From: Methanobacteriota archaeon
Lineage (GTDB): Archaea; Halobacteriota; Methanosarcinia; Methanosarcinales; Methanosarcinaceae
Length of the DNA: 6,375 nt
NCBI GenBank assembly: GCA_030837265.1
Contig: JAUPKV010000302.1
Coordinates: 1 to 6,375 of the forward strand
Direction of reading: 5' to 3'
In this document: positions 2,631-5,895 of the stretch, in pieces
Layout: each line of letters starts with the position of its first letter
Numbering within the stretch: the first letter of the stretch is position 1
Notes under the pieces: model-generated
Database searches by the model: none
What the model saw: only the letters and a program-made list of their open reading frames with translations
Told to the model about the DNA's origin: nothing
Made by a program: the position numbers and the translations under genes

Positions 2631-4988
2631 ATGGAAGAAATACAGTTGAAGGTTGAAAAGGCGTATCCTATCGACCTTGGAAGAGGAATTATCAGACTTG
2701 ATCCAACAGCCTTGCTGAAACTTCAGCTTTCGCCAGGCGATATTGTGGAAATAAGGGGCAAGAAAAAAACCACGGCAAAGGTATGGCGGGCAGACAGGCA
2801 GGATTGGGAACAGGGACTTGTAAGAATTGACAATTTTATCCGACAGAACGCAGGCGTTTCAATAGGAGAGAAAGTAACCATCAAGAAGGTGGAAGCTCCG
2901 GAAGCAAAGAAACTTATCCTGGCTCTTCCGGAAAGCATGACTCAAGGAGGACCTGAACTTCAGTTTGGAGAACATGCAAATGAAATTATTAAGCGGCATA
3001 TCCTTAAAAGGCCAGTGTTCAGGGGAGACATCATTCCCATAATCAACTCGATGTCCCAGCCTATGACCGAATCCCTGACTACAAGCCAGGTTATTCCACT
3101 GGTTGCTGTCGAAACCGACCCGGCAAACACAATTGTCCTTATAACCGAAGCAACAATCATCGAACTCAGGAAAAAGCCGGTGCAGGGCTACGAAAAAGCT
3201 ACCAAAGGCGTAACCACTTATGAGGATATAGGAGGCCTTGGCGATGAGATAATGCGTGTCCGGGAAATGATAGAGCTGCCTATGAAACACCCGGAGCTTT
3301 TCGCCCATTTGAATATTGAGCCGCCGAAAGGCGTCATCCTTTTCGGCCCTCCCGGAACCGGAAAGACCTTGATTGCAAAAGCCGTAGCTAATGAATCCGG
3401 AGCTAGTTTCCATTACATCGCAGGCCCGGAGATCGTAGGGAAGTTCTACGGCGAAAGTGAGGAAAGGCTCAGGAAGATCTTCGAAGAAGCAACTCAGGAT
3501 GCTCCATCAGTCATTTTCATAGACGAGATCGATTCCATTGCCCCAAAAAGGGAAAATGTGACCGGAGAAGTGGAAAGGCGGGTAGTTGCTCAACTTCTTA
3601 CTCTACTTGACGGAATGGAAGAAAGAGGGCAAGTAGTAGTTATCGGAGCTACTAACCGTGTAGATGCAATTGATCCGGCGCTAAGGAGACCTGGTCGCTT
3701 TGATCGGGAAATTCACATTGGAGTGCCTGACACGAAAGACAGGTATGAGATCCTGCAGATCCATACGAGAGGCATGCCTATTGAAGCGGAAGTAGAGCCC
3801 GACACAGAACCGGAATCGAACGAAACCGCAGATATAATGGCAGAAACAGAAACCGAAACTGATGATGCTGTCCTGGAGAGAGAAAAGAAGGAGAAGGTGA
3901 ACAGATATCTTCAGTATCTTGCCGAAAGAACCCAGGGTTTTGTGGGTGCAGATCTGCTGGCCCTTGTACAGGAAGCTGCCATGCGCTGCCTCAGAGAGAA
4001 CATGCCTGATCTTGACCTTGATATAGAAGCAGTTCCACCGGAAAAGCTGGAAAAGATCATCGTAACTAAGAATAACTTCGAAGATGCCCTTAATGAAGCA
4101 GAACCTTCAGCTTTGAGGGAGATTTTTGTAGAAATGCCAACAGTTGGTTGGGATGATGTAGGAGGACTGGACGAAGCAAGACAGTCAATTATTGAGGCTG
4201 TCGAATGGCCTATTAAAAGCCCACAGAAGTTTATCCAGATGGGTATAAAAGCTCCAAGGGGAATCCTGCTTTATGGCCCTCCGGGTACTGGAAAAACTCT
4301 CATTGCTCAAGCAGTTTCAAAAGAATCGAACGCTATTTTCATAAGTGTCAAAGGCCCGGAGATATTTTCAAAGTGGCTTGGAGAATCTGAAAAAGCTATC
4401 AGAGAGACTTTCAAAAAAGCGCGACAGGTCGCCCCATGTGTAATTTTCTTTGACGAGATTGATTCGATTGCATCCATGCCCGGCATGGAGTCTACGGACA
4501 GCCACACTTCCGAGAGGGTGCTGAACCAGCTTCTTACAGAGATGGACGGACTCGAGACACTTAAAGACGTGGTAGTGATTGCCGCAACCAATCGCCCTAA
4601 CCTCCTTGACCACGCAATCATGCGGCCCGGACGTTTTGATAGATTGGTCTTTGTTGGTGCTCCTGACCGCAGAGGCAGACTCAAAATCTTCAAGATCCAT
4701 CTAAAAGATACGCCTCTTGCTCCGGATGTGGATATTGAACACCTTGCTGACACAACCGAAGGTTATGTGGGTGCAGATATCGAATCCGTGTCCAGGGAAG
4801 CAGTGATGATTGCCTTAAGGGAAAATTTCGATGTAGAAAGAATTGAAATGAGGCATTTCAGGGAAGCTTTGAAAAAGGTAAAGCCAACTATTACGGAAAA
4901 TATTGCTCAGTTTTATGAGAAGATAGAGGCTCAGTTCAAAGGAGGCCAAAAACTCACGGATACTGCCGGTTATGTCGGCTACAGATGA
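2631..4988 (+). CDS. cdc48: Cdc48/VAT-type two-ring AAA+ ATPase
   Basis: This is the archaeal counterpart of p97/VCP: a cytoplasmic hexamer that uses ATP to pull substrates through its pore, unfolding proteins or taking complexes apart, often ahead of the 20S proteasome. The 785 residues hold an N-terminal double-psi barrel (about 1-90), a second N subdomain (about 95-185), and rings D1 and D2. D1 has Walker A GPPGTGKT (239-246), pore loop KFYGES (271-276), Walker B FIDEID (296-301), sensor GATNR (339-343) and arginine fingers R356/R359. D2 has GPPGTGKT (549-556), KWLGES (581-586), FFDEID (606-611), AATNRP (651-656) and R668/R671. Both sites appear active. It exceeds typical archaeal length (about 730-760) mainly through an acidic insert at about 384-424 in D1. 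The C-terminus ends VGYR, with a penultimate tyrosine loosely like a proteasome-docking HbYX tail. The ATG at 2631 gives the normal N-domain start. Confidence 0.97.
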
Positions 4989-4992
4989 AATC

Positions 4993-5120
4993 AAATGAGT
5001 AGTTCTTTAAATGGGTAACTCTATTAGTGAGTAACCCCTTTAACGAGCGAATTTTTAAATGAACAACTATATAAATAGGCAACTCTTTAAATGATTAACT
5101 CTATAAATGAAAGTCAGATT
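4993..5120. repeat. Array of eight 16-bp tandem repeats
   Basis: Starting four bases after the cdc48 stop codon, the sequence divides exactly into eight 16-bp units with no indel: 4993, 5009, 5025, 5041, 5057, 5073, 5089 and 5105. The consensus is AAATGAGTAACTCTTT. Units 1, 2, 5, 6 and 7 are closest, 3 and 4 are more diverged, and 8 keeps mainly AAATGA and the final TT. The period is not a multiple of three and the units hold stops, so it is not coding. Each unit is a near-palindrome (GAGT-A-ACTC flanked by AAA/TTT). The junctions (CTTTAAATG, CTATAAATG, TATATAAATAG) look like TATA boxes, and the last lie at promoter distance from the PRC-barrel gene. Confidence 0.85.
5102..5108 (+). promoter_or_regulatory. 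Candidate TATA box of the PRC-barrel gene
   Basis: TATAAAT at the junction of repeat units 7 and 8 is about 55 bases before the start codon, giving a predicted leader of about 30 bases. An equally good box, TATATAAAT at about 5069-5077 in the same array, would give a longer leader. Confidence 0.4.
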
Positions 5121-5140
5121 TACCAAATTCGCATGACATC

Positions 5141-5150
5141 GAGGATGGAG
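5141..5150 (+). promoter_or_regulatory. Purine-rich ribosome binding site before the PRC-barrel gene
   Basis: GAGGATGGAG precedes the ATG at 5162, with its last GGAG ending 11 bases away. This is slightly long spacing, but it is the only good match nearby. An ATG inside it opens a four-codon reading frame that is probably incidental. Confidence 0.5.
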
Positions 5151-5161
5151 AAACGATAGAA

Positions 5162-5416
5162 ATGTCGAAAGTATTTGCAAGGAACCTTCTCTTCAATAAG
5201 CAGGTGATGGCTACCGACGGAACAGAGATAGGAACTCTAAGCAACGTTGTAGTCGAGATCAAAGGCGGGAATATAATCGACCTGATGATAAACCCGAACC
5301 CCAACTTTGATACTACCAGATACAGGAAAGTGGATAATTATATCCTTTTGCCTTTCGATTCCGTAAGTGCTATTAAGGATTATATTATTGTAGACAAAAT
5401 GAAAGCAAAGGTATGA
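5162..5416 (+). CDS. PRC-barrel domain protein, 84 residues
   Basis: The whole protein is one PRC-barrel, the small beta-barrel also found in photosynthetic reaction centre H subunits and in the RNA-processing factor RimM. Archaea carry many stand-alone copies of about 80-90 residues, and some haloarchaeal ones (CdpB type) act in cell division. The family pattern is clear: an N-terminal strand, MATDGTEIGTLSNVVVEI (residues 16-33), the GGNIIDLMINPNP turn and strand (35-47), then YILLPFDSVSAIKDYIIVD (60-78). There is no signal peptide or membrane segment, so it should be cytoplasmic and probably acts by binding a partner. It is co-directional with cdc48 but separated by 173 bp carrying a repeat array and its own likely promoter, so a shared operon is uncertain. 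The specific function is unknown. Confidence 0.9.
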   Translation: MSKVFARNLLFNKQVMATDGTEIGTLSNVVVEIKGGNIIDLMINPNPNFDTTRYRKVDNYILLPFDSVSAIKDYIIVDKMKAKV

Positions 5417-5514: not shown

Positions 5515-5895
5515 ATGGTCTCAAGGGGAGCTGTTGAAATTGGTTTTGTCTACATCTCTCATTGTCCTAAGTTTGGTGACGATATAGGGAATACCAGAAA
5601 ATGTTCACAGGCTAATCCCTCTTTTCAGATAATGACTTTAGAGATTTTATTAACCTCCTCTTTGATAACTCTGCTGGGAATTTATATTGGGGCTCTGGCT
5701 TTGCAAAATAAAAGCATATTTCTGGCGTCGTTCATGCATGGAGTCGTAAATGCTCAGGATCATGGAATATGGACAATAATTTATCCTGACTATAACCCTT
5801 TAATAGGAGGCGGAGACGGACTCATAGCACTTATCATTTTGCTTCCGGTTGCTCTATATTACTTGAGAAATACAAGATCCTGCTCATTCCTATAA
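5515..5895 (+). pseudogene. C-terminal part of a CPBP/CAAX-type membrane metalloprotease
   Basis: The 126 residues match the end of a CPBP-family intramembrane protease (Pfam ABI/CAAX protease): a membrane segment and loop IYIGALALQNKSIFLASF, motif 3 as HGVVN (H75-N79), then GIWTIIYPDYNPLIGGGDGL, followed by a last membrane segment (about 102-117). VYISHCP around H16 could be the remains of motif 2 (usually WGLWHxP). Motif 1, the EExxWR catalytic pair that comes before it, is absent, and the preceding 100 bases, checked in three frames, do not contain it; the spacer is pyrimidine-rich. The ATG at 5515 follows an in-frame TAA (5503-5505), has no ribosome binding site, and is probably not an original start. 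I therefore call a 5'-truncated, inactive gene. The odd stretch GDDIGNTRKCSQANP (21-35) may hide further small indels. Confidence 0.7.

Follow-up and report, generated by a model that had tools for sequence, protein, structure and literature searches.

Methanosarcina is reported to stand out among Archaea for its tandem repeats, with 1908 satellites in nine genomes, most of them with units shorter than 30 nt (Subirana & Messeguer 2019, PMC6749651). A search for papers with the phrase intergenic tandem repeats in Methanosarcina returned none, and we claim no priority. PRC-barrel proteins are described in Haloferax, where cell division involves CdpB1 and CdpB2 (PMC12186497), and promoter spacing is described in Methanolobus, where BRE and TATA elements are reported to lie about 19-22 nt from the transcription start site (PMC5378194). 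Here we analysed the window, a 6,375-nucleotide stretch of Methanosarcinaceae DNA, in which a first-pass annotation had placed eight 16-bp units between cdc48 and a PRC-barrel gene. The array proved real, and with seven units of 16 bp it agrees in unit number and length with the satellite definition of PMC6749651 (at least 4 tandem repeats of 10-200 nt), which also sets an internal regularity; its phase and palindromy had been over-read.

The cdc48-PRC spacer and its 16-bp array

The features of the locus are as follows.

2631..4988, + strand: cdc48 (CDC48-family AAA ATPase), the upstream gene, 785 aa; an ORF matching TIGR01243 at 973.6 bits, above cut-off, and Pfam CDC48_N and AAA
4993..5008, + strand: unit 1, where many relatives have a unit-like stretch immediately behind the cdc48 stop (spacer comparison by eye, alignment)
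about 4993..5110, + strand: decayed 16-bp tandem array of 7 units (consensus AAATGAGTAACTCTTT) plus AAATGA (lag-16 identity, units, relatives)
5101..5108, + strand: last junction, TATAAATG, candidate TATA box of the PRC gene, adjoining the conserved leader
5111..5161, + strand: conserved PRC leader with a Shine-Dalgarno-like GGAGA (alignment, conservation among relatives)
5162..5416, + strand: PRC-barrel gene, the downstream gene, 84 aa; Pfam PF05239, E 2.9e-14

The 84-aa PRC-barrel protein matches two PDB chains, 8qzo_A and 8onw_H, both named PRC-barrel domain-containing protein. A separate 126-aa ORF at 5515-5895 has matches below the Pfam cut-off to Rce1-like CAAX protease (E 0.0063) and HXXEE (E 0.0025), and a below-cut-off match to an NCBIfam CPBP protease/ABC permease model (E 0.0065); it may represent what is left of the C-terminal part of a membrane protease gene.

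The cdc48 stop codon occupies 4986-4988 and the first unit begins at 4993, so that the array does start just after the gene, as annotated. Its units run in strict phase without an indel in the 173-bp cdc48-PRC spacer, and the 16-bp period agrees with the annotation of the array as non-coding. Identity at lag 16 was 69/112 (0.616) over 4993-5120, compared with 0.17-0.40 at lags 4-15 and 17-31, and harmonics were found at lags 32 (0.573) and 48 (0.588). The whole spacer gave z = 6.9 at lag 16, a value that none of 400 dinucleotide shuffles of the spacer matched at any lag from 5 to 40. TRF at a minimum score of 30 did not report the array at 4993-5110, and we therefore regard it as decayed. Units 1-7 carry 23 mismatches in 112 bases, with the phase unbroken. 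The stretch previously counted as an eighth unit (5105-5120) has 7 mismatches to the consensus, compared with 2-6 for each of units 1-7, and its sequence from about 5111 onward agrees with the PRC leader conserved in relatives. The array proper is thus seven units and six bases rather than eight units. Elsewhere in the window, weakly periodic stretches were observed at 1-173 (lag 15, z 4.4, including 2 x 15 bp at 141-170) and at 1141-1313 (lag 9, z 5.1).

The spacer in related genomes and the age of the array

Scanning genome contigs with the PRC protein gave 40 loci, and the PRC gene was present in 28 of 30 genomes reached via the genus of G001, the draft genome of locus L001. The 28 whole-genome loci (L043-L070) included 17 with spacers identical to those of earlier loci. 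The comparison set comprised 34 distinct spacers besides that of the window, once duplicates and 17 distant loci had been removed (L023-L039, from Methanolobus, Methanohalophilus and other distant family members, with spacers of 16-115 bp); two of these distant loci formed the outgroup of the cdc48 tree. L041, L042, L071 and L072-L101 were also set aside from the spacer comparison. The lag test of the relatives' spacers was run without L014 and L020, which have N in the spacer, and the spacer alignment without L020 and L021, with the spacer of L014 represented by L062.

Comparing the spacer across relatives, a check proposed in the first-pass annotation, located a 16-bp array of like kind in 1 of the 34 other distinct spacers (by eye in part). 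This was L001, Methanosarcina sp. Chersky.3_35, whose cdc48 and PRC sequences are 93% and 92% identical to those of the window. In the cdc48 tree (37 rows) the window and L001 are sisters with support of 100/100; L002 and L005 join them at 92/88, drawn as an open fork. Many other spacers have a single unit-like stretch (GAATTTAAATGAGTAACTCTTAAAAGG-like) directly after the cdc48 stop (by eye in part). With the units of the relatives counted by eye, the spacers form a series: one unit-like copy in the clade of L003, two copies at a distance of 16 bp in L002, seven units in L001 (six in strict phase, the seventh of 15 bp), and seven in the window.

Repeats of other periods occupy the same spacer in other lineages. 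Another Methanosarcina clade (e.g. L069) has an array of about 13 bp with AATTACAGGTAAA-like units, seen by eye in eight loci, and lag 13 was best in 4 of the 7 loci of this group that were tested (L012, L017, L067 and L069). L020 has a 15-bp array by eye, and L010 and L011 have irregular copies with best lags of 15 and 23. From these sequences, repeats seem to have grown in the cdc48-PRC spacer recurrently. In 22 relatives that show no obvious array, lags of 15-17 were strongest in 17 cases, 8 of them at P < 0.05, although these are related sequences worth about one observation. An older array may have left this signal, or AT-rich boxes set at intervals may produce it. An additional stretch in the 262-bp spacer of L008 carries a GC-rich inverted repeat, CCCCTGAGCTAAAGACTCAGGGGG, that was absent from the other spacers printed; this stretch may be a small inserted element.

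The first-pass annotation had offered recent expansion as one cause of the regular phase. Units differ from one another at a mean of 5.67 of 16 positions within the window, at 3.67 within L001 and at 4.33 between the two, and 95 of 155 fourfold sites of cdc48 are identical between the window and L001. Because of this divergence, and with a like array in the sister lineage, the array in the window is not recent. Unit order does not correspond between the two arrays. One of 6 equally good alignments of the two spacers, the one printed, places a 16-bp whole-unit gap inside the array, and identity over the aligned arrays (85/105) is above that at the fourfold sites, a result that speaks against neutrality, with both the choice of alignment and AT richness raising it. 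Shared unit variants were considered as proof of common descent of the two arrays and rejected, since there is no common order and the best shared variant (window unit 6 and L001 unit 4) was matched in 31% of column permutations.

We consider it probable that the array is an ordinary decayed intergenic minisatellite that arose by local slipped-strand duplication (or unequal exchange) and that selection does not maintain it as a ladder of protein sites. The source would be the 16-bp stretch directly after the cdc48 stop that is present in many relatives, multiplied in place by slippage or exchange. Expansion would most simply predate the split of the window and L001, the alternative being an independent expansion in each. 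Afterwards it would have degenerated through base substitutions and through units being added or dropped whole. A by-product in the window would be the loss of about 64 bp that include a conserved upstream box, and the last junction (5101-5108) would now supply the TATA box of the PRC gene.

Phase, palindromy and the array background of the genus

The unit had also been described as a near-palindrome forming possible sites for a dimeric regulator at 1.5 helical turns. The consensus AAATGAGTAACTCTTT followed by A does match in 6 of 8 possible palindrome pairs, although the 17-base palindrome as originally written is not the unit. In units 1-7, 24 of 42 pairs are kept, below the column-shuffled mean of 27.1. 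A dimeric operator was therefore rejected, as palindromic half-sites are not maintained between units. We regard it as highly improbable that the units form a ladder of binding sites for a dimeric regulator or a protein that bends DNA. The near-palindromic consensus, the indel-free phase and the lag 15-17 signal in related spacers are in favour of this reading. Against it are the poorly kept pairs, the different periods (about 13 and 15 bp) seen elsewhere in this spacer, and the distribution of the unit in related genomes. A search for the unit pattern with up to 3 mismatches in 14 related genomes (run without L010) gave 166 matches, against 142 for a reversed control, and at least 14 of the 166 lie in the cdc48-PRC spacer. 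This search, also proposed in the annotation, indicates that the unit is not scattered in these related genomes: outside the spacer it occurs near the control count. The same counts in relatives led us to reject a dispersed repeat or mobile element. The spacer had no match among plasmids, and the PRC protein no relative among viral contigs. Among the matches listed, the 19-mer TATAAATGATTACTTCTAT occurs once each in G001, G003, G013, G020, G023 and G025, and TATAAATTAGTATCTCTAA or a near copy occurs in seven genomes; these are perhaps orthologous single sites.

Unbroken phase could also reflect selection on the spacing itself. To set an expectation, a gap-to-substitution ratio was taken from 19 spacers without obvious arrays (171 pairs). 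The 139 pairs less than 20% divergent contained 951 gaps to 2744 substitutions, so that 8 gaps were expected in the array and none was found (P = 0.0003), and the 19 pairs less than 10% divergent contained 29 to 204, giving 3.3 expected and none found (P about 0.04); both values are limited by non-independent pairs and by a ratio that shifts with the gap penalties. Among TRF rows decayed to a like degree (at most 85% match), 15 of 42 are indel-free as well, in a set whose rows overlap and extend beyond intergenic DNA. The array has fewer indels than expected, which counts against the neutral reading.

The background of the genus nevertheless argues against helical-phase selection. In 400 kb from each of three complete genomes, TRF (3 copies or more, period 9 or more) found 244 arrays, 182 of them intergenic (59, 45 and 78 per genome, in 1.2 Mb). 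The intergenic periods range from 9 to 51, with period 16 in 16 of the 182. Exact cyclic unit matches are rare, the commonest unit occurring twice among 186. With other periods in the genus and in this very spacer, selection on a spacing of 1.5 turns, as proposed in the annotation, is not supported and was set aside as a less likely reading, although the deficit of indels stands. Strong periodicity is likewise frequent: in G011, 30 of 201 intergenic stretches of at least 120 bp reached z of at least 6 and 27 reached at least 7, compared with 6.9 for the spacer of the window. The draft G001 has few arrays, with 4 intergenic ones in 123 kb, 1 of 74 stretches at z of at least 6 and 0 of 74 at 7 or more, which counts against the minisatellite account; short-read drafts may lose repeats.

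Another reading considered was an RNA structure or a terminator, located either in the 3' UTR of cdc48 or in the leader of PRC. The predicted fold is slightly more stable than that of shuffled sequences (z = -1.80), but 10 of 200 shuffles fold at least as well, the window has no Rfam match at the gathering score, and the array is absent from 33 of the 34 other distinct spacers. With a weak fold and no such match, the RNA element was rejected as highly improbable.

TATA-like junctions and the promoter of the PRC-barrel gene

The well-kept junctions between units had been read as archaeal box A. By eye, TTTAAAT or TATAAAT stands at 5 of the 7 internal junctions, whereas those at about 5025 and 5041 differ, and conservation in the junction columns does not significantly exceed that in the centre columns (41/49 vs 48/63, P = 0.36). 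A TATA matrix built from 17 tRNA upstream regions lacks the power to settle the matter. On this matrix, for which the 99th and 99.9th genome percentiles are 4.1 and 7.2, four of the five TATA-like junctions score 4.6-6.4 and the fifth below 3, while a non-TATA stretch scores 6.0. The last junction, at 4.8, is below two junctions further up (6.0 and 6.4).

Of 33 aligned spacers, 31 retain a box of GTTTTAAAG or GTTTATAAAG type, located about 97-115 bases upstream of the ATG, with the variants GTTTTTAAAG, GCTTTAAAG, GTCTTTAAAA, GTTCTTAAAA and AATTTATAAAG. The box was read from the aligned block; a pattern written after seeing the alignment has its L021 match elsewhere. The two spacers without a kept box are the two with the 16-bp array. 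In the window, where about 64 bp are absent relative to L001, this upstream TAAA box has been deleted, and L001 has it in altered form (GTTTTGAAAG); the PRC gene may therefore use the last junction, TATAAATG, as its TATA box. By eye, relatives carry TTTAAA-, TTCAAA- or TCGAAG-like stretches near the place of this junction. It also adjoins the conserved PRC leader, which is identical between the window and L001 at 47 of 52 aligned bases, and a TBP site at this position is plausible. If the spacing reported for Methanolobus (PMC5378194) applied, PRC transcription would start near 5127-5130 with a leader of roughly 32-35 nt.

Conservation of the spacer was examined in 30 relatives, the window and L001 being kept apart. 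Mean identity was 0.72 in the spacer and 0.50 at fourfold sites over 355 of 435 pairs, a difference enlarged by the choice of pairs with low fourfold identity, which lowers the fourfold mean, and by AT richness, which raises spacer identity. Conservation was 0.78 in the box stretch, 0.81 at GAATAAAAT, 0.82-0.84 in the AAAGCCAGCTTTACCC leader and 0.82-0.85 in the Shine-Dalgarno-like CGGAGA stretch.

These data bear on whether the array as a whole became a promoter in the window/L001 lineage, with several TATA-like junctions giving redundant PRC starts and the ancestral core box dispensable. Consistent with this are the coincidence of box loss with the array, the five TATA-like junctions, the indel-free phase, and the conservation of the spacer above fourfold sites in the relatives. 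However, the window and L001 are sisters, so that loss of the box together with gain of the array may be a single event, and the role of the box as PRC promoter is itself putative, and its conservation (0.78) is below the 0.82-0.85 of the leader and Shine-Dalgarno region. The selected pairs and AT richness inflate the spacer contrast, the matrix is weak enough to give a non-TATA stretch 6.0, and junctions are no better kept than centres. We consider such an array-derived promoter unlikely. A turnover of the promoter by the minisatellite, in which the array grew beside the PRC core promoter, its TATA-like junctions took over, and the old box decayed in L001 and was deleted in the window, is a somewhat better, still doubtful, possibility. 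If true, such a takeover would be a small, clean archaeal example of repeat slippage replacing a core promoter. The genus samples do not bear out a general role of arrays as promoters: TATA-like hexamers occur in 12 of 186 intergenic units compared with 20.0 (sd 3.9) in shuffled units, and are rarer if anything. The sampled arrays are therefore not generally promoter-like, and the array of the window is unusual in this.

The array is thus probably of a kind common in the genus, with the mildly interesting point that its last copy may act as a start signal of the next gene. Since intergenic tandem arrays are common in the sampled Methanosarcina genomes, neither an even phase nor TATA-like junctions in a single array can by itself be taken to indicate regulation, and the locus has value as a calibration of such readings. 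Like the Methanosarcina satellites reported in PMC6749651, it consists of tandem units of 10-30 nt, which are very numerous in the genus; unlike those reported there, it is more decayed, to the point that TRF misses it at score 30. It also differs in carrying TATA-like junctions, as do 12 of 186 intergenic units in our genome samples. Its closest counterpart in position is the L069-type array of about 13 bp, which also lies in the cdc48-PRC spacer upstream of the conserved core but has another unit and period and has kept the conserved box.
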